Part shown: piece after piece, positions 7,578 to 41,973 of the stretch
Position numbering within the stretch: the stretch's first letter is position 1
Layout of the letters: the number at the start of each line of letters is the position of its first letter
Translations under genes and position numbers: made by a program
Notes under the pieces: model-generated
The model's input: the letters and a program-made list of their open reading frames with translations, nothing else
Databases searched by the model: none
Told to the model about the DNA's origin: nothing
Assembly (NCBI GenBank): GCA_003141315.1
Contig: PLLP01000021.1
Span: forward strand, 9,480 to 52,774
DNA: 43,295 bases
Direction of reading: 5' to 3'
Origin: Phycisphaerales bacterium
Lineage (GTDB): Bacteria > Planctomycetota > Phycisphaerae > Sedimentisphaerales > Anaerobacaceae

Positions 7578-9991
7578 TTCTCCTTATTGACAACCAACCC
7601 GAATATTCCGCCCGCATAACTATCCGCAGGCGACTGTAATTTGACCGTTATCTTGTCTTTACCTTTGGTCAAATCCTCCGGTATCTGGAAAGTATCCGTA
7701 TAGAACACCTCGCCGTGGCTTTCGTCTATCTTCACCGCTGCCAGCTGCTTATCGTTAACCAGTATTGTAAACTCCCTGCCGACGTCGCCGCCCCACCATG
7801 TGCATTCCAGAACCATTTTCGCATCCGGCAGAACCTTCACGTCGTAGCTGAACCAGCCGTTCTCGCTCGCATCACGCCAGTTACGCTCCCGATGAATTCC
7901 GTTAGAGGTACCTTCGCCCTGCTGGTTATGCGCTTTTTCGGATTCCGCATCACCAATCTTAACCTCATCGACCATCAGGCCGGCCTTTGCTTCCGCTGTC
8001 TTTTTTTCCGCGGATTGACTTGCCTTTTCCGCGTTTTGCTTTGCTTCTTTCTGCTTATATTCCGGTTCGGTCACCAAGTTCCAGTAAATATTGTATCTCT
8101 GGTTATATAATTCATAAAAAGGCGACAGTATTACATCATTCGGCTTACCGGCGCCTGTCGTCTGAAATACCAATTTCTGCCCTTCAACCGGCTTAATCCA
8201 ATTCTCAAGATTAGTCAAATCGCCGACCAAAACCGGCACCTCTATTGACGGGGCATTATGCTGGCTTCGCTGACCCGGAACATACTCCATCGTACGATTA
8301 AGATTTTCCATCCCAAGTTCGCCCGCCAGCACCACCGGCCCATACATAATCGTCGCCACCTTCACATCATCCGGCATCCGCTGTAAATGCAGGCTCATCG
8401 GCATTTCTATATCAATCCTGTCGCCGTCTTTCCACGTGCGATTGAGAACCATATATGACCCCGGCACTGACTTCGTATCCAGCGCCCAGCCGTTTATCGA
8501 AACTTTCGCTCCTTTCGTTGCCCAGTAAGGCACCCGCACCCTGATCGCAAACTCCGCCGGCCTCGACGCCTTTATCAACAGGCTCGTTTTGTCTTCCTGC
8601 GGGAATTTTGTCTCCTGCCTGATAACAAAACCTTTCTGTTTCCAGTTCAGCTCCGATGCGATAAATAAATTAACATACAGCCCGTCTTCATCATAAAAAT
8701 ATATGCTGTCGCCGTACTTCGCATGATTTTCCATCCCTGTCCCAGTGCAGCACCAAAATGAATTTTCCGGCTGGCAGAATACCTTGAAATGCCCCGGCTT
8801 CAACGCCACATAATACATCATCATCCCGTTTTCAGGACTTTGCGAAGCCAGAATATGATTAAGAACCGCCCTCTCGTAATAGTCAGCGTATTTAACATCC
8901 GCCGTCCACTCGAATAGGTGCCTGGTGAGTTTCAGCATATTATAAGTGCAGCAGGTCTCCGCGGATTCCACGCTCAACTCCGCAGCAAGTTTGCCCGGCG
9001 GTGTTCGCCAGTATTCATAATTGCTCGTCCCGCCTATCGAATAAGTCCTGTTATCGATTACCGTATCCCAGAAAAATGTCGCAATCGTCTCGTACTTCTG
9101 CTGGCCCGTTATCTCATATTCCCGTGCCGCCCCGATTACCTTCGGTATCTGCGTATTTGCATGCAGTCTCTCCAATTCATCTTTTCTCTCCGCCAGAGGC
9201 CCGAAAACCATTTTATGGTCAAACCTTTGTGCAAGCGCAAGGTATTCCGTTTTGCCAGTCGCTGTGTATAAATTCGCCAGAACCTCGTTCATCCCGCCGA
9301 ACTCATTTCGCATCATATCCTGCATCTGGCTGTCGCTGAGCTTATCCATCCGCATCTTCGCCCAGTTCGCCATTCCGCAGACCACCTCAAGGGCCTGCTT
9401 GTTGCCGCAATAAGTATAAGTATCCAAAAGTCCCGCCATAATCTTATGCAGCGTGTACCACGGCGCCCACACCATCTTTCCTTCAATCACACGGTCGATA
9501 AATTCCTCAGGATAAGCGCTCAGGTATCCGGTTGTGCCAAGCGCCTTCTGGCACTTCGCAAGCTCCGCTGTGATATATTCTGTTCTTTTCTTTAATTCCT
9601 CATCGCCGGTGGCTGAGTACATCAGCGCACAAGCCGACAGATAATGTCCGATTGAATGCCCTCTTAATTCACTGGTCGGCAGCTCCCACCCGCCATAGGG
9701 TTTGGCCTTCGACGGCAACCCAGCATTCAACCTGAAAGTATGCAGGAGTCTATCCGGCTCAATCTCCAAAAGGTATCTTTTATCACGTTTCATCGCATCC
9801 TTAAAAGGCCCATCCAGCAGTTTGACATCCGGCAAATCGAACGCCTTCGCCTTAAAGGCCTGTTTGGGCTGCACCTTATCAGCAATCGCCGCCCTGCCGC
9901 CCCCGCTATATTGGGAAGCAGTCTGACAACCTGACAAAACCAAAATTACTACAAACAATACCGTCAAACTTGTGCTGAGTGTCTTCTTCAT
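7574..9991 (-). CDS. GH127-family beta-L-arabinofuranosidase, lipoprotein
   Basis: This 805-residue secreted glycoside hydrolase of the GH127 (former DUF1680) family has an all-alpha catalytic domain followed by beta-sandwich domains. The N-terminus is a lipoprotein signal with lipobox LSGC (C22). The family's catalytic cysteine/glutamate set is visible: E345 and C347 in AETCC, and C414-C415 in FWCCTGTG. These correspond well to E338/C340/C417/C418 of characterised HypBA1, where one of the cysteines is the nucleophile. Family members release L-arabinofuranose, including from hydroxyproline-linked arabino-oligosaccharides of extensins; the exact substrate here is inferred. A lysine/alanine-rich low-complexity linker (KQNAEKASQSAEKK) precedes a C-terminal beta domain. 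The ATG at 9991 has GGAG 7 bases upstream and is preferred to the start at 10006. Confidence 0.85.
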   Translation of the reverse strand: MKKTLSTSLTVLFVVILVLSGCQTASQYSGGGRAAIADKVQPKQAFKAKAFDLPDVKLLDGPFKDAMKRDKRYLLEIEPDRLLHTFRLNAGLPSKAKPYGGWELPTSELRGHSIGHYLSACALMYSATGDEELKKRTEYITAELAKCQKALGTTGYLSAYPEEFIDRVIEGKMVWAPWYTLHKIMAGLLDTYTYCGNKQALEVVCGMANWAKMRMDKLSDSQMQDMMRNEFGGMNEVLANLYTATGKTEYLALAQRFDHKMVFGPLAERKDELERLHANTQIPKVIGAAREYEITGQQKYETIATFFWDTVIDNRTYSIGGTSNYEYWRTPPGKLAAELSVESAETCCTYNMLKLTRHLFEWTADVKYADYYERAVLNHILASQSPENGMMMYYVALKPGHFKVFCQPENSFWCCTGTGMENHAKYGDSIYFYDEDGLYVNLFIASELNWKQKGFVIRQETKFPQEDKTSLLIKASRPAEFAIRVRVPYWATKGAKVSINGWALDTKSVPGSYMVLNRTWKDGDRIDIEMPMSLHLQRMPDDVKVATIMYGPVVLAGELGMENLNRTMEYVPGQRSQHNAPSIEVPVLVGDLTNLENWIKPVEGQKLVFQTTGAGKPNDVILSPFYELYNQRYNIYWNLVTEPEYKQKEAKQNAEKASQSAEKKTAEAKAGLMVDEVKIGDAESEKAHNQQGEGTSNGIHRERNWRDASENGWFSYDVKVLPDAKMVLECTWWGGDVGREFTILVNDKQLAAVKIDESHGEVFYTDTFQIPEDLTKGKDKITVKLQSPADSYAGGIFGLVVNKEK

Positions 9992-10025
9992 AATAATTCT
10001 CCACATTCTGAATTCTGTATTCTGG

Positions 10026-10058
10026 ATTTCGGAGATCCGCCATTCTTGTGGCGGACTG
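10026..10058. repeat. palindromic element copy A (TCCGCC/GGCGGA)
   Basis: Exact arms TCCGCC (10036-10041) and GGCGGA (10050-10055) with an 8-base loop lie in the leader of the GH127 gene. The 33 bases read on the minus strand match copy B at 22336-22368 at 29 of 33 positions, without gaps. Both copies are flanked by CAGAA-type microrepeats. No transposase is linked to it. Confidence 0.8.
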
Positions 10059-10100
10059 AATTCTGTTTTTATTCTGGTTTTGCACTTCGAATTTAGTTTA

Positions 10101-10814
10101 TCATTTTCCTCTTCTTGCTTCGTCGATTACGTATGAAGGCGTAATCACCCCGTCGCTTATTACGAACCGAAGCGCTTCCTCCACCGTCATATCGAGAGGC
10201 ACCGTATCCTCTTTGGCCATCAAAATCAGGTAGCCGGACAATGGCGACGGCGCCGTCGGCACCAGGATACTAAACAGCTCTTTCTCCTTTCCGCCCACAG
10301 CCCATTTCATTCCCTCGCCCGTCACAAAACCGATTGTCCATATCCCTATCCTCGGGTATTCGAACGCCACGACCCGCGAGATAAATTTCGTCTGCTCTTT
10401 TTGCGAAAGCAGAAAATCCGAAACCTGTTTCACATATGGGTACACCTGTTTAACCAGCGGAATAATTCCTATGAACCGCTCCGTACTCCGCCACAGCCTT
10501 TTGCCTATCACATTCGCAAGGATTACGCCGACGGCAAACACAATTATCAGCGCTATGATAAACCCCGCCATGGAGCCCAGCCCTTCCACCCAGAACCGCT
10601 CCACCCGCATTCGAGCCTCAGTATCCGCCAGCGACAGCCCCGACAGTTCCATCCAAACAAAAGCAATCCCCTCATTTATAGCCCACCCTATTGTCTTTTG
10701 TATTAAATGGTATATCCAGATGAATACCCATATCGTCACCGCCGCGGGCAGCAGAACCGCCAGTCCCTGCAAAAAATATCTTTTAAGCCGCCCCGTTTTT
10801 TCCTTATCGCTCAT
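10101..10814 (-). CDS. DUF502 family membrane protein
   Basis: This integral membrane protein has the DUF502 signature: a basic N-terminus (KRYFLQGLAVLLPAAVT), a first TM helix near residues 14-38, an amphipathic segment, a second TM around 75-98 (FIIALIIVFAVGVILANVIG) and a soluble C-terminal domain with VAFEYPRIGIWTIGFVTGE and VPTAPSPLSGYLI. The function of the family is not established. The frame also allows a GTG at 10832, but the ATG at 10814 has a purine-rich GGAAAA just upstream and begins closer to the conserved region. It lies 33 bases after the flippase-like gene (17 if the GTG is used), so the two are probably co-transcribed. Confidence 0.8.
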   Translation of the reverse strand: MSDKEKTGRLKRYFLQGLAVLLPAAVTIWVFIWIYHLIQKTIGWAINEGIAFVWMELSGLSLADTEARMRVERFWVEGLGSMAGFIIALIIVFAVGVILANVIGKRLWRSTERFIGIIPLVKQVYPYVKQVSDFLLSQKEQTKFISRVVAFEYPRIGIWTIGFVTGEGMKWAVGGKEKELFSILVPTAPSPLSGYLILMAKEDTVPLDMTVEEALRFVISDGVITPSYVIDEARRGK

Positions 10815-10847
10815 TTTTCCAAAACCTTTCACTTATACGGGCATAAC

Positions 10848-11897
10848 CTAACCCGTTTTGTCGCCCTCTTCAAGCGTAAAATCTTTCGGCAGATGCGCGC
10901 CGGCAAGATGAATCCACCCGCCCGCCAGCGACGCTATCATCCATATTATCCTCTGGCACAATGCAAGCGCAAGCGCCGCCTCGGCGCCCACCGACGCAAA
11001 TTTAACAAACATCCCCGCAAGCGAACCCTCCACAAGAACCGCTCCGCCCACCGTCAAAGGCACCATCCCTATCGACCAGCTCAATGTGAAAAATACAAAA
11101 TAATAGCTAATGCTCACATCAACTCCCAGCTGCCTGCCAGCCAGCCAGTATCCCGCTATAGTCGCAAGCTGCAGCGCTATCGTCAAAACCAAAGTTGCAG
11201 TCACTTCGACAGGCCTCTTTCTGTAAAGCACTCCTGCCCTGCCTAATTTTTGCAGCAGTTTCAATCCTTCTTCTTTTCCTCTTATCCATAAATTCTGCAT
11301 AATCCTTCTCGTTGTCGGAATTACAAAAAGAATCACAACCGAAACCGCTATAATCAATCCTGCCGCCATGAAAATCCGCTCATACAGACTCAAAGAGCCG
11401 AACGAATCGCTCCCCATAGCCAAATCTATATCTTTTCTACCCGGCAAAAGAAAATAAAACACGACCGCTATCACTACAGACCCGACCAGCCCGACTATCC
11501 TGTCAACAAGGATGCTCAGCACCGCCTCGAATCTTTTCTCCGTATGTTTCGTCACATACCATGCGCGCACGAGGTCGCCGCCGACCGCACCTGGCATAAA
11601 ATTATTATAAAACAGGCCGAGAAAAACCAATCGTATCGCTGACCCTAATGATATGAAAATCCCCTGCGTCCTAAGCAGTATCCACCATCGAAACGCCACG
11701 GCAACCTGACCGGCTATATAACCCGCAAGCGCTACGATGAAAATCAGCGGATTAAGCTGCCTGAAAATCCCCACCAGCCTGCCAAACCGGCCTTCCTGGC
11801 TAAGCCAGATACACGCCCAAATAAGCCCCGCCGCAACGACTATCAGCCGGATTGCCAGGAATAATTTACTGCCGCCTGTTTTCTTTTTCCGCTCCAT
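10848..11897 (-). CDS. lysylphosphatidylglycerol synthase TM-region/flippase-like membrane protein
   Basis: This polytopic protein has about eight predicted TM helices and the LPG_synthase_TM (UPF0104) signature FYNNFMPGAVGGDLVRAWY followed by an ILVDRIVGL helix. Related domains form the flippase part of MprF and occur alone in proteins thought to move lipids or isoprenoid carriers. No lysyl-transferase domain is attached, so aminoacylation is not implied. The ATG at 11897 follows a TTG that could also be used; the ribosome binding site is weak (AGG about a dozen bases upstream). The gene is divergent from hisI and appears to head the minus-strand run of genes down to ptsI. Confidence 0.75.
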   Translation of the reverse strand: MERKKKTGGSKLFLAIRLIVVAAGLIWACIWLSQEGRFGRLVGIFRQLNPLIFIVALAGYIAGQVAVAFRWWILLRTQGIFISLGSAIRLVFLGLFYNNFMPGAVGGDLVRAWYVTKHTEKRFEAVLSILVDRIVGLVGSVVIAVVFYFLLPGRKDIDLAMGSDSFGSLSLYERIFMAAGLIIAVSVVILFVIPTTRRIMQNLWIRGKEEGLKLLQKLGRAGVLYRKRPVEVTATLVLTIALQLATIAGYWLAGRQLGVDVSISYYFVFFTLSWSIGMVPLTVGGAVLVEGSLAGMFVKFASVGAEAALALALCQRIIWMIASLAGGWIHLAGAHLPKDFTLEEGDKTG

Positions 11898-11961
11898 CAA
11901 AAACCATCATCCTGTTAACCCGCCTTTCTCGCGGCGGAATTCTCTTGTTTTTCCTGATAAT

Positions 11962-11993
11962 AACGGCTAAATTCTCTTTTAGCAAGAACCGTT
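11962..11993. repeat. interrupted inverted repeat upstream of hisI
   Basis: The inner arms GCTAAA (11966-11971) and TTTAGC (11978-11983) enclose TTCTCT, and the outer arms AACGG (11962-11966) and CCGTT (11989-11993) extend the stem with a bulge. It could form a hairpin or an operator; no function is known. Confidence 0.45.
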
Positions 11994-12034
11994 TTGCCGT
12001 TCGTTTCGTCGTTATATTTAGGCGTTTAGCCCAG

Positions 12035-12049
12035 TCCGCCGAAGGCGGA
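12035..12049. repeat. palindromic element copy C
   Basis: TCCGCC, a 3-base loop GAA, then GGCGGA form a perfect hairpin about 38 bases before the hisI start codon. The preceding CAG is shared with copies A and B. It lies within the 5' leader of hisI, so it could affect translation of that message. Confidence 0.7.
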
Positions 12050-12086
12050 GCTTCGGGGTTGTTTTGCTTATTTTGAGTTAATAATT

Positions 12087-12503
12087 ATGCCTGACAAAAA
12101 ACAAATTGAAGAAGGCCTCGACTTTACCCCGCAATTCGATGCGAACGGCCTCATCCCCGCCATCGCCCAGGACGCTTCTACCGGCCAGATACTGATGGTT
12201 GCTTATATGAATAGAGAAGCGCTCGAACAAACCATTGCGACGGGCAACGCCGTGTATTATTCCCGTTCGCGAAAAAAACTCTGGAAAAAAGGTGAGCAGT
12301 CGGGCCATTTCCAAAAAGTCAGGCAAATACTCGTCGATTGCGACCAGGATTGCCTTATTCTGAAGGTGGAAGTGAACGCAGGCCAGTGCCATACCGGCTA
12401 CCAATCCTGCTTCTACCGCGCTATCGAAGACAAGGCCGGCAAAAAACTAAAACTTATCGCTAAAAAAACCTTCGACCCCCGGAAAATATATAAAAATCCT
12501 TAA
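12087..12503 (+). CDS. hisI: phosphoribosyl-AMP cyclohydrolase
   Basis: This enzyme opens the purine ring of phosphoribosyl-AMP, the third step of histidine biosynthesis. It is a 138-residue stand-alone form without the HisE domain. The family signatures are clear: MVAYMNREAL, VYYSRSRKKLWKKGE, the metal-binding DCDQDC stretch and GQCHTGYQSCFYR with the zinc cysteines. No other his gene lies nearby in the window, so it is an isolated locus here. The ribosome binding site is weak, and element copy C sits in its leader. Confidence 0.95.
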   Translation: MPDKKQIEEGLDFTPQFDANGLIPAIAQDASTGQILMVAYMNREALEQTIATGNAVYYSRSRKKLWKKGEQSGHFQKVRQILVDCDQDCLILKVEVNAGQCHTGYQSCFYRAIEDKAGKKLKLIAKKTFDPRKIYKNP

Positions 12504-12598
12504 TTTTCGGCCTGTCTGATTTTGAGCGAAACGGCCCCGGTTTTTCGGAGTCATATTATTTATTCGAAATGTAGAATAAAAAATAAAGGAATATTATT

Positions 12599-12877
12599 AT
12601 GGTAAATGGATCTGAAGCCGGCGCAATTGCTGCGATATCGGAAGCTGCGAAGGCTTTCGGGGCGATTATCAAAGTGGAATCCGCCGATTTCGATGCGATT
12701 GTCCGGAAGCAGGATGAGCCGCTTGTTGTTTTCTGTCAGGGCGGCATCTTCTCAACAAAATATCAATATCTGATGGGATACAAGGGTCTGGTTTTTTATA
12801 CGAAGACGGCTGCGCCGCTGAATCTGCCCGCCAAAACCGAAATAATAAAGGCAAAAAAAATCTGGATTCCGGCATAA
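12599..12877 (+). CDS. small conserved protein of unknown function
   Basis: The 92-residue soluble protein starts with a short Ala-rich helix and contains a beta-rich core with VVFCQGGIFSTKYQYLMGYKGLVFYTK and ends IIKAKKIWIP. I do not know a function for it. The pattern of hydrophobic strands and the clean ribosome binding site (AAAGGA 8 bases before the ATG) support a real gene. It precedes hemW by 21 bases on the same strand, so it probably shares the hemW-lepA transcript. It has no membrane segment, signal peptide or metal motif. Confidence 0.65.
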   Translation: MVNGSEAGAIAAISEAAKAFGAIIKVESADFDAIVRKQDEPLVVFCQGGIFSTKYQYLMGYKGLVFYTKTAAPLNLPAKTEIIKAKKIWIPA

Positions 12878-12898
12878 CCCCACTGGTTCGGTAATTTT

Positions 12899-14041
12899 AT
12901 GGATATCGACAACATTATTGAGAATATCGGCTTATACGTGCATATACCTTTCTGCAGGTCGAAATGCAGATACTGCGGTTTCTATTCGCGGCCTGTCGAA
13001 GATTACGACGTCGAAAGACTAATCGCAGCCGTTATAACCGAACTCGACAACTGCAATTGCATCGGTTCGATTCAAACGGTTTATATCGGCGGAGGAAGCC
13101 CAAGCTGCCTGCCGGAGAAAAGCTTACTGCGGCTCATCGAATATATTTACAACAGATGGAAAAATATCGAGGAGTTCACAATCGAATGCAATCCCGGCCA
13201 GGTTAATATCGAGGTTCTGCGAAAAGCGAGGAAGCTCGGCGTGAGCCGCATTTCAATCGGCGCACAATCATTTGACCATGCCGAGCTTGAATTTCTGGGC
13301 AGAACCCATAACGTAGGCGATATTACAAATGCGGTAACGCAGGCGAAAAATGCGGGCTTCGATAATATCAGTATCGATTTAATCTTCGCAATACCAGGCT
13401 CGACAATTTTGTCGTGGCGGCAAAACCTGATGCGGGCAATAAAGCTCGGCGTCCCGCACATATCGGCATACAGTTTAAGCTATGAGGACGGCACAATTCT
13501 GAAACAGCAGCGGGACGCAGGCTTATTTGCACCTGTCGATGAAGAAACAGACCGGGCGATGTATGAGCTTACAGAAGAGCTGCTCGAACAGGCCGGCTTT
13601 GAACATTACGAGATATCGAATTTTGCCAGGCCGTCCTTCCGCTGCAAACACAATATGCGATACTGGCAAAACAAGCCTTATATAGGCGTGGGGCCTGCGG
13701 CGGCATCCTGCACAGGAAACCAGCGAACAAAAAATATTGCCGATATCGATAAATACATACAGGCTGTCGAAACGAACGGCACCACCGCACAGGAAACTAT
13801 AAATCTTTCTGCTGCCGATATTGCAAGCGAAACCGCCGTTCTCAACCTTCGCACAGCAGATGGTATCAACATCGAAGATTACAGGCAGCGGCACAATCTC
13901 GATATTTGCAATGTCTTTGCCGGGCCGATAGAACGTCATTGCAGCCTCGGCCTTATCGCCAGGGAAAAAAATAATATACGCCTTACGAAAAACGCGCTTC
14001 CGATAGCAGATTCGATTCTTTGTGATTTTATTATAGATTGA
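12899..14041 (+). CDS. hemW: HemW-like radical SAM protein (heme chaperone)
   Basis: This radical SAM protein carries the CxxxCxxC cluster motif CRSKCRYCGFY near residues 19-29, preceded by YVHIPF, and the GGGSPS SAM-binding loop. The C-terminal HemN-like domain is present (EISNFARP, RYWQNKPYIGVGPAA). Members named HemW are heme-binding proteins rather than coproporphyrinogen dehydrogenases; the extra motifs of true HemN are absent and the 380-residue length fits HemW. lepA begins 12 bases downstream, a neighbourhood also seen in Firmicutes (lepA-hemW), so the two are co-transcribed. Confidence 0.88.
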   Translation: MDIDNIIENIGLYVHIPFCRSKCRYCGFYSRPVEDYDVERLIAAVITELDNCNCIGSIQTVYIGGGSPSCLPEKSLLRLIEYIYNRWKNIEEFTIECNPGQVNIEVLRKARKLGVSRISIGAQSFDHAELEFLGRTHNVGDITNAVTQAKNAGFDNISIDLIFAIPGSTILSWRQNLMRAIKLGVPHISAYSLSYEDGTILKQQRDAGLFAPVDEETDRAMYELTEELLEQAGFEHYEISNFARPSFRCKHNMRYWQNKPYIGVGPAAASCTGNQRTKNIADIDKYIQAVETNGTTAQETINLSAADIASETAVLNLRTADGINIEDYRQRHNLDICNVFAGPIERHCSLGLIAREKNNIRLTKNALPIADSILCDFIID

Positions 14042-32804: not shown

Positions 32805-33062
32805 TTATTTCCTCGCGAAGGCAAATGCAAACCGGCATACCGAATATTATATTCAAAATTATACTCTTTTCTTCCCGGCTATAAAGCCGTAAATTTCACA
32901 AACGGTTTATTTCATCGCTGAACTGGCGATAACGCAAAGAAATAATGCCATTTAACCGCTGATAATATTTTTCCCCGTGTATTGACTGTATTTGTAAAAA
33001 AGATATGATTTAGGGGCGATATGTTCGTTTGTGCATAACCTCATTTTTTGAGAGGATTCTGG
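32805..33062. other. divergent intergenic region oppB / modE-like
   Basis: This 258-base region drives oppB leftwards and the ModE-like gene rightwards. It contains a good sigma-70 style promoter for the latter (32982-33009) and a pair of half-sites CGATAT (33017-33022) and ATAACC (33035-33040). No small gene is apparent. Confidence 0.5.
32982..33009 (+). promoter_or_regulatory. promoter of the ModE-like gene
   Basis: TTGACT (32982-32987) and TATGAT (33004-33009) are separated by 16 bases, each one base away from consensus. The gene ATG is at 33063, giving a leader of about 45 bases. Downstream half-sites CGATAT and ATAACC loosely resemble the CGnTAT/ATAnCG ends of E. coli ModE boxes, so autoregulation is possible. 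Confidence 0.6.
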
Positions 33063-33416
33063 ATGCAAAAGCTTCAGGCAAAATTTCGGCTGTGGATTGA
33101 TACGAAGAGCGGCAAAAGCATTATCGGTGACGGAAGATGGCGGCTGCTCGATACAATCGAGAAGACCGGCTCGCTCGCATCGGCGTGCAAAATACTCAAC
33201 ATCAGCTACCGCAAGGCCTGGGGAGACCTCCTGGAGATACAAAAAGCGACGGAAGCGGCTGTGATTGAGAAACATCGCGGAGGCAATAAAGGCGGCGATA
33301 CGCACCTTACGCCCTACGGCAAAAAATTTACGAAGGCATACAAGTGTATGCACAGCGATATTGAAAAGGCGGTTGAAAAGTCCTGCAGCAAATATTTTCA
33401 TACGATACTGAAATGA
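33063..33416 (+). CDS. ModE-like N-terminal winged-helix transcription regulator
   Basis: This 117-residue DNA-binding protein matches the ModE/LysR-type winged helix: GDGRWRLLDTIEKTGSLASACKILNISYRKAWGDLLEI. It lacks the MOP (molybdate-binding) domains of full ModE, so it cannot sense molybdate in the standard manner. Such short forms are common next to molybdenum/tungsten genes. AGAGGA sits 6 bases before the ATG at 33063; a TTG 5 codons upstream has no site. The prepilin-like gene begins at 33413, with an ATGA overlap. Confidence 0.82.
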   Translation: MQKLQAKFRLWIDTKSGKSIIGDGRWRLLDTIEKTGSLASACKILNISYRKAWGDLLEIQKATEAAVIEKHRGGNKGGDTHLTPYGKKFTKAYKCMHSDIEKAVEKSCSKYFHTILK

Positions 33417-34324
33417 AGAAAAATTTTGCAAAAATATCTCCTGATTTGTCCCATTCAATGGGGTTCGCCCCATTAGAGACCCGCCTGCCGAGTCCGCCTG
33501 GGCGGATTAGAGGCAATGGTTTAAATGGGATTAGAATACTTCGTTCTCTAACGGGGTTCACCCTTGTCGAGATGCTGGTGGTCATATCTGTTATTTCTCT
33601 GCTGATGGCGATACTAATGCCTGTCCTGGGCCGGGCAAAAGCGGCTGCATACCAGGTCGTTTGCCAGTCGCGGCTGCGCCAGTGGGGGCTGGGTTTTGAA
33701 GGATATGCGACACAAAACCGCGGTTTTTACCCGCACACGGACGGCCTTGACCGCAGCCCTCCCGAACCAAACAAATGTCTCAACATTGCCGACAAAGCAG
33801 ACTGGTTTGGCTGGGTCGATATGCTGCCGCCCCTGTTCGGCGAGAAAAAATGGCGAGACCACGCCGCCGGCAAGGCGCCGGGCAGAGACACGATATTTCA
33901 ATGTCCTGCCGCAAAAGCCCCGCCCAAAAGGATAGAATATTTTTCTTACGCTATGAATTCCTGCCTCGAGCTCGACAAGAACTGCAAGTCGCCCGCTACT
34001 GACCCTGGATGCAATAATATGCCGTCCTTTCTCAATACGGCATCTGTCAAAACGCCGGCGCGTGTAATCCTTTTATTCGACCAGCTTCTTGAGCCGGCAA
34101 AAGGTTATAACAACACCGGCAATCCTGACAAGTCCGCAGGCACGCATTGCGGAAGCTACCCGAAGGCATTCTCATCCCGTCATGCCAGGCAGCAGGGAAA
34201 ACTGGGCGGCTTAATATTATACTGCGATTATCATATCGATTGGACCGCTTCCGTGTGGAAACCCGAATGGCCTGACAACCTCGAGGTGCCGCCGAGAAGC
34301 GATAAAGACTGGTTTCCTTATTAA
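33413..34324 (+). CDS. prepilin-type N-terminal-methylation-domain protein
   Basis: This pseudopilin-like protein carries the type II secretion/type IV pilin motif TG|FTLVEML with the conserved +5 Glu (E53) and a hydrophobic helix VVISVISLLMAILMPVL. The mature part ends with SRHARQQGKLGGLILYCDYHIDW, a variant of the planctomycete pattern RHxGxxNxxFxDGHVxW. The leader ahead of the cleavage site is 48 residues, far longer than usual, and is encoded by palindromic DNA (33457-33557). An in-frame ATG at 33458 is an alternative start. It overlaps the ModE-like gene by ATGA. Many secreted planctomycete proteins of this kind have no known function. Confidence 0.78.
   Translation: MKKNFAKISPDLSHSMGFAPLETRLPSPPGRIRGNGLNGIRILRSLTGFTLVEMLVVISVISLLMAILMPVLGRAKAAAYQVVCQSRLRQWGLGFEGYATQNRGFYPHTDGLDRSPPEPNKCLNIADKADWFGWVDMLPPLFGEKKWRDHAAGKAPGRDTIFQCPAAKAPPKRIEYFSYAMNSCLELDKNCKSPATDPGCNNMPSFLNTASVKTPARVILLFDQLLEPAKGYNNTGNPDKSAGTHCGSYPKAFSSRHARQQGKLGGLILYCDYHIDWTASVWKPEWPDNLEVPPRSDKDWFPY
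33457..33557. repeat. composite palindromic repeat forming the prepilin leader (copy E)
   Basis: Three parts are seen: AATGGGG-TTCG-CCCCATT (33457-33474), a perfect stem with a TTCG loop; TCCGCC-TG-GGCGGA (33493-33506), element copy E; and TTCTCTAACGGGGT (33544-33557), identical to the polA palindrome end. TTAGAGA adjoins both this CCCCATT and the CCCCG arm in polA. All of it is read through as protein. Confidence 0.75.
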
Positions 34325-34345: not shown

Positions 34346-35347
34346 ATGAAAAACAGTAAAGGAATAATGATTGTAGTTATCGCTGCGGCAATACTGGCGC
34401 AGGTTTGTCTGGCGGATGTGCCGACATTATCAATCTACCAAATCCAGTACACCACCGACCCCGCTGGCAACAGCTCCTACGATGGTCAGATGGTAAATTG
34501 TACGGGCGGAATTGTAATTTATAAATACTCCAAAGGCAGACAGCGAATAATTCTTTACGACGGCGTTCACAGCGACGGCTGGGGCGGCATCACCGTAAAG
34601 GCCTTAAACGGATATCCATTTAACAGCGTAAATCTCGGCGACTGGGTTTCATTGAGCAATGTTTGGGTGTATGAAACCGCATACAAATCATCGGGCAATA
34701 CGACGCTGTTTTACGACAGTTCATTTTCATCTTCGTTCACGGTTGACAGCAATAATAATCCCCTGCCGCAGCCGACAGTTGTTTCAATTACCGATATTCC
34801 TGCTCCGGTTTATGACCCGGCGAGGTCAGGCTGGTACGTCGCCAACCACAATGCTGAAAAATATGAGTCTATGTATATAAAGGTAAAAGATGTCAATGTC
34901 GGCAGTATGAACCTCGGAAAAAGCAATCCCCCGGATAATTATTCTCTCTGCAGTCCCGCCGACCCGAGTATCAGCTGCTGGGCATCCGATTATATGAACA
35001 AAGACAAGGACCCCGCTTTGTATTATATGTCAATTATCGCTCCGGGTCTGCATTTGTGCAGCGTGAGCGGAATACTTGAGCAATATACGAATCTGGGCGG
35101 TTCAACCCGCTGGGATTATTACCAGCTTCTGACAACCAGCTCCGGCGATTTGAAAACGCAGACAGGCGACCTCAACAGAGACTGCAAAGTTGACTTCGCT
35201 GATTTCGCTTATTTCGCACAGCAGTGGCTCAACGATTACTGCAACGACCCTGACTGGTGCAACGGGACAGATTTTTCGAAAGACGGCATTGTCGATGAGG
35301 CAGACCTTGCTATACTCGTAGATAACTGGCTTTCGATTACAGATTAA
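34346..35347 (+). CDS. secreted protein with dockerin-like C-terminal EF-hands
   Basis: This 333-residue secreted protein has a signal peptide (MKNSKGIMIVVIAAAILAQVCLA) and an N-terminal beta-rich domain starting IYQIQYTTDP, which resembles the OB-fold repeat domains found beside secreted nucleases. Its C-terminus carries two Ca-binding loops: DLNRDCKVDFADF and DFSKDGIVDEADL, spaced as in type I dockerins. Planctomycete proteins often end this way; it may anchor the protein to a cell-surface scaffold or simply bind calcium. No catalytic motif is seen. GGAGGTG precedes the ATG strongly. It follows the prepilin gene by 21 bases. Confidence 0.72.
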   Translation: MKNSKGIMIVVIAAAILAQVCLADVPTLSIYQIQYTTDPAGNSSYDGQMVNCTGGIVIYKYSKGRQRIILYDGVHSDGWGGITVKALNGYPFNSVNLGDWVSLSNVWVYETAYKSSGNTTLFYDSSFSSSFTVDSNNNPLPQPTVVSITDIPAPVYDPARSGWYVANHNAEKYESMYIKVKDVNVGSMNLGKSNPPDNYSLCSPADPSISCWASDYMNKDKDPALYYMSIIAPGLHLCSVSGILEQYTNLGGSTRWDYYQLLTTSSGDLKTQTGDLNRDCKVDFADFAYFAQQWLNDYCNDPDWCNGTDFSKDGIVDEADLAILVDNWLSITD

Positions 35348-35541: not shown

Positions 35542-36171
35542 ATGAAAAAGGATTATATTCTCGGGGTGCTTTTTTTCAGCGGGCTTTGGGGATTATCGGA
35601 GGCGGCGCTTGGCGGGGTATTATATTCTGCGAAAGTCCCCCACAGCTCGATTATCCTTACACTGGCAGCATTCGGGATTCTTGCGGTTTCGAGGGCATAT
35701 CTGCCGCAAATAGGAACGGCGACACTGATAGGGCTTTGTGCGATGCTCTTTAAATTTTTTAACTCGCCGTTTTTCGCCTGCCATTTCGCCGGTATCGCAA
35801 TAGCAGGCATCAGCTTCGATTTGTTCCTCTCGCTGATTAATATAAAGAACAAGGCGATTGCCGGGTTTGTCGCTGCGTTTTTCAATTACGCCGCCTTCGC
35901 GATATTTATGACTTTTATCGTCAGGTATCATTACTGGACAGGCTCGCTTGATAAATTTAACAACCACATCGTGGAAGGAATTTTCGCGGCGGCGGGATGT
36001 GCAATCGTTGTGCCGGTTATGCTGAAGGTCGGCCAAATGATAAAGGTGAAACTGGAAACGCCCTTCAGCCTGAAATTCAGGCTGGCAGAAGGATGTGTTT
36101 CGCTCGCGACAGCTGGCCTGTGGGTTTTTAGCTTAGTTGTTTTCTCGCATACACTAATTGCAGGCAAATAA
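35542..36171 (+). CDS. polytopic membrane protein, possible transporter S-component
   Basis: This 209-residue protein has about six TM helices and small conserved patches GLWGLSEAALGG and FKFFNSPFFACHFAGI. Size and topology resemble the substrate-binding S-components of ECF transporters, but I do not recognise a family member. Its TAA overlaps the start of the NTPase gene (TAATG). The next two genes are P-loop proteins linked to nucleotide or molybdenum cofactor chemistry, so a transported metal oxyanion or cofactor precursor is one guess. Confidence 0.6.
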   Translation: MKKDYILGVLFFSGLWGLSEAALGGVLYSAKVPHSSIILTLAAFGILAVSRAYLPQIGTATLIGLCAMLFKFFNSPFFACHFAGIAIAGISFDLFLSLINIKNKAIAGFVAAFFNYAAFAIFMTFIVRYHYWTGSLDKFNNHIVEGIFAAAGCAIVVPVMLKVGQMIKVKLETPFSLKFRLAEGCVSLATAGLWVFSLVVFSHTLIAGK

Positions 36172-36890
36172 TGGAACGCAAGGAATGCCGGCTTATTTTA
36201 CTTGCTGGTAAAAAGCACAGCGGCAAAACGACGTTTGTGCAAAGGGTTATAGAAAAGCTAACAAGGGAAAATTTCAAAATTGCCGGTCTATTAGCGCCTT
36301 CGGTTTACGAGGGCGCTTTTTTATTGGGCTACAACCTTGTCAATATCGATAACGGCAAGAGAGTTAAATTTGCCCGCCGCAGAAAACCGGAAGAACCTTT
36401 TCAATTCAGCAGCAAAGGCTGGCGGTTCGGACAAGCGATACTAAACAACAGGAAGACCCGAAAATCGGATTTGGTTATTATCGATGAGTTCGGACCGATT
36501 GAACTGGCAGGCGGCGGCTGGCGAAAAGACGTGGATTTGCTTTTGTCATCGACGAATTGTATTATACTGCTCGTGGTGCGAAAAGAAATTGTCAGCAAAG
36601 TAAAAAGATTATATAAAAAGTATGAGCCGGCAGAATTAGCAGCAAAAAGAAACGATTCCATTAACAAATGTCTACAAATACTCAACGGCAGGAAAAAGAT
36701 TAAGGATAAACAAATGGTAAATGAAAAGATTGCCAAAAGGCTCGGGCGGTTTGTGAAACGCGGGCAGATTAGCTGCAGGCAGTGTTTCAAAATCGCAGGG
36801 GAATCGAAGGTAAATCTGAAAAGTATCGGCGACGCCTGCAATAAAATGAAAATTAAAATCCGCTCCTGCCAGCTTGGCTGCTTCAAATAA
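36171..36890 (+). CDS. THEP1-like P-loop NTPase with C-terminal Cys cluster
   Basis: This 239-residue protein has a P-loop GKKHSGKT (residues 13-20) and a Walker B-like IIDEFGPIEL (103-112), the signature of the NTPase_1/THEP1 nucleoside-triphosphatase family. Beyond about residue 180 it has an added segment with five cysteines: C202/C205, C223, C233 and C237 (ending CQLGCF). These could bind a metal or a cluster. I recall similar endings in proteins near molybdenum-cofactor genes but cannot name the domain. It overlaps the membrane protein gene by one base and precedes the MobB-like gene by one base. Confidence 0.7.
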   Translation: MERKECRLILLAGKKHSGKTTFVQRVIEKLTRENFKIAGLLAPSVYEGAFLLGYNLVNIDNGKRVKFARRRKPEEPFQFSSKGWRFGQAILNNRKTRKSDLVIIDEFGPIELAGGGWRKDVDLLLSSTNCIILLVVRKEIVSKVKRLYKKYEPAELAAKRNDSINKCLQILNGRKKIKDKQMVNEKIAKRLGRFVKRGQISCRQCFKIAGESKVNLKSIGDACNKMKIKIRSCQLGCFK

Positions 36891-36891
36891 T

Positions 36892-37494
36892 ATGGCCGGT
36901 AAAAAAAATAACCGCAAAATCAGGCTCGATGGAATGCTCCTTATCGGTTCAACCGGCAGAAAGTCCGGCAAGACCACCCTCGTATGCCAAATCATCCGAA
37001 AATTCCGCAAAAAAAATATTATCGCAATAAAGGTTTCAACAATCGAAAAGGCTGATAAGGATTTTCATCACGATTTGCCAGCAACCAGCAAAAAAGGATT
37101 CTGTCTCACAGAAGAAACCAGAACAAATACGAAAAAGGACACGTCAAAAATGCTCGCAGTCGGCGATTCGAGAGTATTCTGGCTCCGAGCGGAAAAGAAG
37201 TGTTTGAGAAAAGGCTGGGCCCTCCTGCTGAAAACAATCGGCCGAGATGCTGTCTGCATCTGCGAATCGAATTCGCTGAGGCAAATCGTCAGGCCGGGAT
37301 TATTTATAATGGTGAAAGGCCCTCGTTGCAGGAAAATAAAACCATCAGCAAAAGAAGTTCTAAATTTTGCCGACAGGATAATCTCTCCTGATGACAACGG
37401 GTTCGATAACTTTCTGAGAGATTTAAGACTCATCTCAGAAAAATGGTCAATAACAACCAAATGCGAGTCCCTGCAAAATCGAGACTCGCAATGA
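36892..37494 (+). CDS. MobB-like P-loop protein
   Basis: The P-loop GSTGRKSGKTTL (residues 19-30) and the overall size resemble MobB, the nucleotide-binding adaptor in molybdopterin guanine dinucleotide synthesis, although the remaining sequence is divergent. It includes a D-rich DKDFHHDLPAT segment near the position where MobB has HHH/D residues. The ATG at 36892 begins one base after the NTPase stop; a TTG inside the previous gene is less likely. The trio 35542-37494 looks like one operon. A MoaD-like and an AOR gene lie on the other strand 2.4 kb away. Confidence 0.65.
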   Translation: MAGKKNNRKIRLDGMLLIGSTGRKSGKTTLVCQIIRKFRKKNIIAIKVSTIEKADKDFHHDLPATSKKGFCLTEETRTNTKKDTSKMLAVGDSRVFWLRAEKKCLRKGWALLLKTIGRDAVCICESNSLRQIVRPGLFIMVKGPRCRKIKPSAKEVLNFADRIISPDDNGFDNFLRDLRLISEKWSITTKCESLQNRDSQ

Positions 37495-39872: not shown

Positions 39873-40106
39873 TTATCCTCCGCCGACAGCAGGAGGGAAA
39901 ATAAATACCGTATCGCCTTCAGACAAAACCGTCTGCAGGTCCGATTGCTTTCCATTGACGGCTATGAGCCGGACATGTTCTTCTGGAAGCCCCAAAAACC
40001 TTACCAGGTCAAGAACCGTTCCGCCGTCTTTTAGCGCGGTTTTGCCGTCCGCATCGCATTTATGAAACTTCGCGAATATCGACATAAGTTTTACGTCAAC
40101 CTTCAT
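39873..40106 (-). CDS. MoaD/ThiS-like sulfur carrier protein
   Basis: This 77-residue ubiquitin-fold protein has the family C-terminus with a terminal Gly-Gly (PPAVGGG), which is thiocarboxylated to deliver sulfur to molybdopterin or thiazole. The neighbouring tungsten-type aldehyde ferredoxin oxidoreductase gene, which it overlaps by 11 bases, favours a role in tungstopterin supply. The end GEGDTVFIFPPAVGGG resembles MoaD more than ThiS. No moaE was seen. Confidence 0.88.
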   Translation of the reverse strand: MKVDVKLMSIFAKFHKCDADGKTALKDGGTVLDLVRFLGLPEEHVRLIAVNGKQSDLQTVLSEGDTVFIFPPAVGGG

Positions 40107-41973
40107 CGATTTTGTCCTCGTTCATTAATGAAAGGCCGAGTCGTTTTAGGGTCTCTATGCCAGGAGAGCCATTGCTGTCCCAGCCCCTGATTTTGTAATA
40201 GTCGGCCATCATTTCCTTAAACGGAATAACTTTGCCCGCGCGGAAACCCTGCTTTGCGGAATTATACATTTTTTTCGGAAGGACGTCGGTCTTTGCGTCA
40301 TAGCCGTCGCGGACATTAAGAATCCTCTGCAGGTTAAAAATCCTCTCGCCTGCGAGCATCAAATCATCGACCGTATATCCCCAGCCTGTAATAGCGTTAA
40401 ACATCTCCGCAAGGCTCGTAAGCGACCAGCCGCCGCCATCGACCATAAACAAACAAAGCACCAGCGCGTTGACGACCCCGCCGAGGTCCTGGCATTTTAT
40501 CGCAACAAGGCTCTGGTTTTGCGGCTCGAAAAATTTTACCATCCCCTGCTTTATGCCGATCTCCGGCATAAAAAATCCGCCCATCTCGATGTCTTCACTT
40601 GGGCCTCTGAAATGGCATGCCCCGCGAGTGCCTGTCGCATAAGTAAGCGCAAGTGAGATACAGGAGCGGGCATCGTGCGCCGGGTAATCGAGGCCTTTAT
40701 TATGGACAACCCTCTCGACCGCTTCCGGCCCGAATTTTTCCGCGGCCTTCAATGTGCCGTCCGCAAAGACTGCGCCGAAACCTTCCCTTTTCCCTATCTG
40801 CTCGATGAGCGTCAAAAATGCTTTTGCGTCTCCGAATTTCAAAATCATGCCGCCGGTATCTTTTGTTGTAATAAGCCCCTTCTCGAAGCAATCCATAGCA
40901 AACCCGACCATCGCCCCGCCTGAGATTGTGTCAACGCCCAGCCGGTTTGCGATGTCGTTGCCTATCGCCACGACCTTCGGGTCGTCGATAAGCAGGTTCG
41001 AACCCATCAGCCCCATCGTTTCATATTCAGGCCCGACCCCTTCGTAAGCGTATTCGGGCGGTTCGGTAATTTTAATTTTCCGGTGGCAGCCGACGGGGCA
41101 GTGTGCGCAGGGCCAGGGCTTTGCGCCGAGGACATTGGTATAATTCGGCGCTCCGAGTTTTTTTGCGCCTTCGGGCCAGGTATCGCCATCCCAGTATTTT
41201 ATGGGCATATCGCCGAGACCTTCAGCCGTCTCGCAGAGCATCGGCGTGCCGTGTTCCCTGAACTTGTTATCCTTGACCGCCTTGTGAATTTCGAGCTGAA
41301 ATTTCTTAATCAGTTCCTTTGTCTTTACAGGGTCGCTTACCGGCACTTCTTGTGTGCCTCGAACAGCGACTGCCTTTAAATTTTTCGAGCCCATAATTGC
41401 GCCGAGGCCGCACCTGCCCGCGAAGCTGTGCTTATCCATTGCCACGCAGGCGATTGCCACTTTCCTCTCCCCTGCCGGCCCGATTGCGGCAACGCTCACT
41501 TTCCGGTCGTCGATTTGCCCGTGAATCTCATCAACTGTCTGATACGTATCCTTGCCCCATAGCGAAGAAGCGTCCCTGATTTGGACGTTGTCATTATTCA
41601 CAAATAGATAGACGGGCTTTTTTGCTTTGCCCGAGATTACAAGTGCATCATAGCCGCATTTTTTAAGTTCCGGCCCGAAGTCCGCTCCGCCGGCGGTATC
41701 GGCAAAAGTTCCGGTCACCGGCGATATGCTTATTATGCTGAATTTCGCCCCGCCCGGCACAGTGTGTCCCTGAAATGCCCCCGTGGCAAAAATTAAAAGG
41801 TTCTGCGGACTGTAAGGCTCGATTTTGGCGGGCAGTTCTTTATTCAGAATATACGCCCCGAGTCCCGCCCCGCCGATATATTTTTTCAGAACCTCTTCGC
41901 TGATTTGTTCAACCCGGCTTTTGCCCGCCGTTAAATCGATCCGCAGAATTTTTTGCCAATATCCGTTACCCAT
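40096..41973 (-). CDS. aor: tungsten-dependent aldehyde:ferredoxin oxidoreductase
   Basis: This 625-residue AOR-family enzyme oxidises aldehydes to carboxylates, passing electrons to ferredoxin through a [4Fe-4S] cluster and a bis-tungstopterin. The cluster ligands CAHCPVGC lie near residue 290 and the distal cysteine in VLCLF is near 505. The N-terminal domain has the pterin-binding region KFSIISISPVTGTFADTAGGADFG and RCGLGAIMGSKNLKAV. Other members are glyceraldehyde-3-phosphate or formaldehyde oxidoreductases, so the substrate is unknown. The MoaD-like gene follows in the same unit. Presence of AOR points to an anaerobic or facultative lifestyle. Confidence 0.93.
   Translation of the reverse strand: MGNGYWQKILRIDLTAGKSRVEQISEEVLKKYIGGAGLGAYILNKELPAKIEPYSPQNLLIFATGAFQGHTVPGGAKFSIISISPVTGTFADTAGGADFGPELKKCGYDALVISGKAKKPVYLFVNNDNVQIRDASSLWGKDTYQTVDEIHGQIDDRKVSVAAIGPAGERKVAIACVAMDKHSFAGRCGLGAIMGSKNLKAVAVRGTQEVPVSDPVKTKELIKKFQLEIHKAVKDNKFREHGTPMLCETAEGLGDMPIKYWDGDTWPEGAKKLGAPNYTNVLGAKPWPCAHCPVGCHRKIKITEPPEYAYEGVGPEYETMGLMGSNLLIDDPKVVAIGNDIANRLGVDTISGGAMVGFAMDCFEKGLITTKDTGGMILKFGDAKAFLTLIEQIGKREGFGAVFADGTLKAAEKFGPEAVERVVHNKGLDYPAHDARSCISLALTYATGTRGACHFRGPSEDIEMGGFFMPEIGIKQGMVKFFEPQNQSLVAIKCQDLGGVVNALVLCLFMVDGGGWSLTSLAEMFNAITGWGYTVDDLMLAGERIFNLQRILNVRDGYDAKTDVLPKKMYNSAKQGFRAGKVIPFKEMMADYYKIRGWDSNGSPGIETLKRLGLSLMNEDKIDEG

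Follow-up and report, generated by a model that had tools for sequence, protein, structure and literature searches.

S-components of ECF transporters, such as RibU, ThiT, FolT and the reduced-folate component ThfT, usually carry vitamins or metals; those for folates (ThfT, PMC9712650; FolT, PMC4820897) show that pterin compounds can be S-component substrates, and BioY (Finkenwirth 2013, cited in PMC4820897) provides a precedent for a solitary S-component that works without an ECF module. Tungstate and molybdate are imported by WtpABC and ModABC. Uptake of the mature pterin cofactor has been reported from the diet in C. elegans (PMC9793310), by a membrane-crossing mechanism that is unknown, and that paper states that uptake of exogenous Moco had not been examined or observed in another organism. 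Several hundred prokaryotes possess molybdoenzymes without a complete cofactor pathway, most of them without a known Mo transporter, and were left unexplained (PMC6147048). The locus described here, in a window of 43,295 nucleotides (the whole stretch of DNA analysed) from a Phycisphaerales bacterium (GCA_003141315.1, contig PLLP01000021.1, positions 9,480 to 52,774), contains a conserved operon around a predicted S-component-like membrane protein, and is a candidate system for import of the pterin cofactor of tungsten/molybdenum enzymes.

The original prediction described three tightly spaced genes, encoding a six-TM protein resembling an S-component, a THEP1-like NTPase with a Cys tail and a MobB-like protein, and this observation is confirmed: the genes exist on the forward strand with a 1-base overlap followed by a 1-base gap, and the short ModE-like regulator upstream and the MoaD-like and AOR genes on the opposite strand are also present. 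The operon had, however, been cut short by three genes. The ModE-like, pseudopilin-like and OB/dockerin genes are on the same strand as the trio and all six genes have orthologues in the same order in related genomes (Table 1), which is far more than chance.

Table 1. Features of the operon and of the neighbouring AOR locus, in window coordinates.
Position	Strand	Feature	Basis
33048..33416	+	ModE-type winged-helix regulator, DNA-binding part only (no Mop/TOBE metal domain); first gene of the operon; start may be ATG 33063	TIGR00637 E 7.8e-21, below cut-off; orthologues head the operon in relatives
33413..34324	+	Pseudopilin-like protein (N-methylation motif GFTLVEMLVV); real start probably near 33551	PF07963 E 1.6e-5; 57% identical to the orthologue in the same place at locus L034 of a relative
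34346..35347	+	Secreted protein with signal-peptide-like N-terminus, OB-type domains in tandem and a dockerin-like Ca-binding repeat	AF2 pLDDT 86; OB-fold matches, VIA Z 11.8 over 94 residues for the first OB; PF00404 E 1.3e-4, just below cut-off
35542..36171	+	Membrane protein with predicted ECF S-component fold (six-helix core plus a C-terminal helix); invariant E20, K71, N74, C80, H81, D93	14-sequence alignment; AF2 pLDDT 84; VIA structure comparison
36171..36890	+	THEP1/NTPase_1 P-loop protein (GKKHSGKT, DEFGPIE) fused to the Cys tail	PF03266 E 5.7e-21; alignment
36720..36887	+	Cys-rich tail domain (SCRQCF...AC...SCQLGCF); a separate 60-100 aa gene in relatives	Tail-only matches and gene order in relatives
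36892..37494	+	MobB-like P-loop domain; in relatives fused to a MobA domain that is absent here; CPRGGxGCGVC motif also lost	E 0.002 to MobB, below cut-off; comparison with relatives
39873..40106	-	MoaD/ThiS-like protein beside AOR	PF02597 E 2.1e-9
40096..41973	-	Aldehyde:ferredoxin oxidoreductase (AOR), presumed user of the cofactor; only copy found in the genome	PF02730 and PF01314

The membrane protein is hydrophobic, with seven helices (the additional one, residues 182-206, lies beyond the six-helix core), and has no significant match to any Pfam or NCBIfam model, including those of known S-component families. In the comparison of its AF2 model with known structures, VIA-align ranks an ECF S-component first (5edl, Z 13.9, 168 residues aligned, 3.2 A), followed by TmRibU (Z 12.9; 160-168 residues for the two), with ThiT (Z 9.8), folate, PanT and transition-metal components also listed. 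Plain Foldseek puts the same family first but only with E-values of 0.08-0.2, and AMO/pMMO B subunits also reach Z 11-12 (11.7), so the fold assignment is good but not absolute. No CbiQ-type EcfT was matched in the genome of the window, and only 4 of 18 relatives with the membrane protein have one, although a divergent EcfT is not excluded by this search; in another relative, G082 (G numbers denote genomes and L numbers loci), EcfAA-EcfT directly precedes the NTPase and tail. A CbiQ gene near AOR in G122 at first suggested a second ECF link, but the gene before it begins like CbiM and the neighbours look like a cobalt/nickel-type set, and the occurrence of these CbiM/CbiQ-type cobalt or nickel transporter genes close to AOR (L088 4284-6773 and 9332-11128) was judged coincidental.

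The NTPase belongs to PF03266 (75.5 bits against a gathering threshold of 23.9), with Walker A and Walker B motifs and invariant core residues, but falls below the cut-off of the NCBIfam equivalog NF010248 (70.5 bits, cut-off 156). The MobB-like protein scores below cut-off with both PF03205 (18.4 of 26.6 bits) and TIGR00176 (17.4 of 76.2 bits), and its profile match to true MobB (probability 83.5) is confined to the N-terminus. PDB sequence searches with the NTPase and the MobB-like protein gave nothing significant. The regulator, at 74 bits with TIGR00637 (cut-off 98.5), is a divergent relative of ModE, a protein of 122 aa that ends after the HTH domain; no confident ModE box was found upstream of the operon, only short inverted repeats.

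In 41 of 148 related genomes the NTPase-tail protein has matches, which fall into two separable parts, an NTPase of about 185 aa and a small Cys protein matching only the tail. The typical gene order is Cys tail, ModE, pseudopilin, OB/dockerin, membrane protein, NTPase, MobB-MobA fusion (about 380 aa), DUF3786 and CooC-like ATPase, so that the four middle genes lie between ModE and MobB-MobA. Other relatives keep the same frame of Cys tail, ModE and MobB-MobA, but hold WtpA-WtpB-WtpC in the slot. The pseudopilin-like and OB/dockerin subfamilies travel with the membrane protein in Planctomycetota, including loci without ModE or MobB-MobA (L045, L046 and L084). The Cys-tail family, of which the CQLGCF end is nearly invariant, matched no Pfam or NCBIfam model, and also stands alone beside genes of formate dehydrogenase, AOR or OppBC-type ABC transporters (L036, L049, L059, L061 and L054). 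A second MobB-like P-loop family with a VVESNAF motif (L036 3200-4117, L042 546-1025, L054 3334-4140 and L084 11100-11570), fused to a ModE-type domain in L036 and L054, also occurs beside the Cys-tail gene.

The replacement of WtpABC by the cassette is seen in L031 (genome G063) and L053 (genome G075), which belong to one genus and are colinear at 80-86% nucleotide identity on both flanks. The 3.03-kb cassette of L031 (7947-10973) stands where L053 has 3.05 kb of WtpABC (9983-13030), and next to it 14292-17810 of L053 (most of moeA, then moaA, moaC and MOSC) is reduced in L031 to 33 bp between a moeA stub and moaB. Relics of moeA also follow MobB-MobA in L034 (a frame with stops) and, weakly, in L041. 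Metal import and pterin synthesis were therefore lost together while later steps were kept.

Among the 148 related genomes, the membrane protein is found in 18, AOR above cut-off in 34, WtpA in 16, MoeA over cut-off in 50, MoaC in 45 and the MoaA C-terminal domain in 45. AOR is carried by 11 of the 18 bearers of the membrane protein against 23 of 130 other genomes (p = 2e-4), and others carry formate or xanthine dehydrogenase genes; the possibility, set out beforehand as a refutation of the molybdenum/tungsten link, that the genes occur mainly in genomes without such enzymes is thus not borne out. No genome has both the membrane protein and WtpA: the difference is not significant over all genomes (0/18 versus 16/130, p = 0.22), but within AOR+ genomes WtpA is found in 0/11 bearers versus 14/23 non-bearers (p = 7e-4), and MoaC is lacking in 9/11 versus 4/23 (p = 5e-4); collapsing to genera leaves p = 0.010 for WtpA and 0.006 for MoaC. 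Genomes with WtpA nearly always keep cofactor biosynthesis (MoaA 16/16, MoaC 15/16, MoeA 16/16), whereas bearers keep MoaA in 7/18, MoaC in 6/18 and MoeA over cut-off in 9/18, one of the nine MoeA matches being an interrupted frame. The genomes of this group that were named in the search with the membrane-protein alignment are MAGs, and of the four AOR+ MoaC-lacking genomes without the membrane protein, two are poorly complete (54% and 69%), one (G025) keeps MoaA and MoeA, and the fourth, G082, has EcfAA-EcfT-NTPase-Cys tail-[MobB-like/ModE] next to AOR. The WtpA model missed the ModA-type binding proteins of bearers G016 and G017, so absence of WtpA is not read as absence of every Mo/W importer. 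The genome of the window, which is 96.6% complete, has one AOR but no match for MoaA, MoaC, MoaE, MoeA or WtpA, in searches that did not cover ModA or TupA. Absence of MoaE was discarded as evidence because 144 of the 148 genomes lack a match, including full-pathway ones; with MoaE above cut-off in only 3 genomes although 45 have MoaC, these bacteria probably use a different large subunit for molybdopterin synthase, for which the MOSC or DUF3786 genes in the cluster are candidates.

A scan of genome contigs with the NTPase alone found nothing, but the membrane-protein alignment detected the family in MAGs labelled Omnitrophota, Stahlbacteria, Aminicenantes, Acidobacteria and Pirellulales. The neighbourhood is formate dehydrogenase, MobA, FdhD, MobB, membrane protein and TonB-dependent receptor (PF00593/PF07715) in Omnitrophota L073; MobB, membrane protein, plug-domain receptor (PF07715) and AOR in Stahlbacteria L087; and MobB, membrane protein and AOR in Stahlbacteria L085. 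In nine additional bearer genomes of unknown completeness, several from other phyla, MoaC is found in none and MoeA in one; G157 (the genome of L085) has MoeA and a MoaA at a contig end. Small oxyanions pass porins, so a TonB-dependent receptor suggests a larger or scarce substrate.

These observations are best explained, with somewhat better than even confidence, by a salvage system for the pterin cofactor of tungsten/molybdenum enzymes, in which the S-component-like protein would carry a molybdopterin-type cofactor, most likely already metal-loaded because MoeA and WtpA disappear along with MoaA and MoaC, across the inner membrane. The ModE-like protein would tie expression to Mo/W status, and the NTPase, Cys tail and MobB-like protein would receive the cofactor, re-phosphorylate it or hand it on for insertion into AOR. 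More speculatively, the NTPase could re-phosphorylate a dephospho form after import, as kinases do for salvaged vitamins, the Cys tail could hold metal or dithiolene, and the OB/dockerin and pseudopilin-like proteins could capture or deliver the cofactor outside, a place that a TonB-dependent receptor has in other phyla. Gene conservation and order, the predicted S-component fold, the exchange with WtpABC and the co-loss of cofactor biosynthesis come directly from the analysis, but transport itself, substrate binding, the exact substrate and the roles of the NTPase, tail and secreted proteins are inferred, without any substrate evidence. Six or seven of the 18 bearers keep Moa genes, so that salvage is not their only source of cofactor; energisation is unexplained in the absence of a CbiQ-type EcfT from the window's genome and 14 of 18 bearers; and no free pool of the oxygen-sensitive cofactor is known at these sites. 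The more specific possibility that finished cofactor is taken up by a solitary S-component-like protein with secreted capture proteins or a TonB receptor is not excluded but remains tentative, at slightly less than even likelihood; it would explain part of the organisms with orphan molybdoproteins. The operon offers a specific membrane protein with which Moco uptake in bacteria could be addressed, and predicts cofactor-sharing among anaerobes as is known for B12.

The original prediction, which considered a role in tungsten or molybdenum uptake or in pterin-cofactor maturation plausible, is partly supported: the S-component resemblance, the tungsten/molybdenum context and, at the level of inference, an uptake role hold, but uptake of bare oxyanion fits less well. 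A non-ABC importer of tungstate or molybdate that replaces WtpABC under ModE control would account for ModE at the head of the operon, the exact WtpABC slot, the mutual exclusion with WtpA and the association with AOR, but is unlikely because most bearers lack MoaA, MoaC and MoeA, without which the metal could not be built into cofactor, and because a TonB-dependent receptor is not normally needed for small oxyanions; G016 and G017, which keep Moa genes, have ModABC beside them, which argues that the cassette is not simply their molybdate importer but does not prove salvage. Import of a pterin precursor (cPMP or metal-free molybdopterin), with the metal being added inside, is consistent with the same Moa losses, with the MoaD-like protein retained next to AOR, with MoaB in L031 and with MoeA in G077 and G157, but it is less likely still, as MoeA and WtpA are lost together with MoaA and MoaC in most Moa-lacking bearers, including the genome of the window. 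Import of a metal-chelator complex (a molybdophore or tungstophore), or of another vitamin-like compound needed by these anaerobes, could be suggested by the TonB receptor and by the usual substrates of S-components, yet it is doubtful given the consistent MobB/MobA/AOR/FDH/ModE neighbourhood and the co-loss of Moa genes.

In the literature searched, no description of a bacterial Moco importer was found. The proposed system would share with C. elegans the acquisition of mature cofactor from outside, although the latter is an animal with an unknown transporter. It shares with WtpABC and ModABC the operon slot, the ModE-type regulator and the MobB-MobA and AOR context, but has no ABC permease or binding protein, and goes with loss of cofactor synthesis instead of its retention. 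Its NTPase has the P-loop and DEFG motif of the THEP1/NTPase_1 family but is fused to a Cys tail and operon-bound to an S-component-like protein. The membrane protein resembles RibU, ThiT and FolT in the predicted six-helix fold over the whole core, and differs in lacking a sequence-family match, in its extra C-terminal helix, in the absence of a CbiQ-type EcfT match from its own genome and in its operon partners. The architecture is thus a variant of S-component vitamin uptake, of which the proposed substrate and the partner set would be new.
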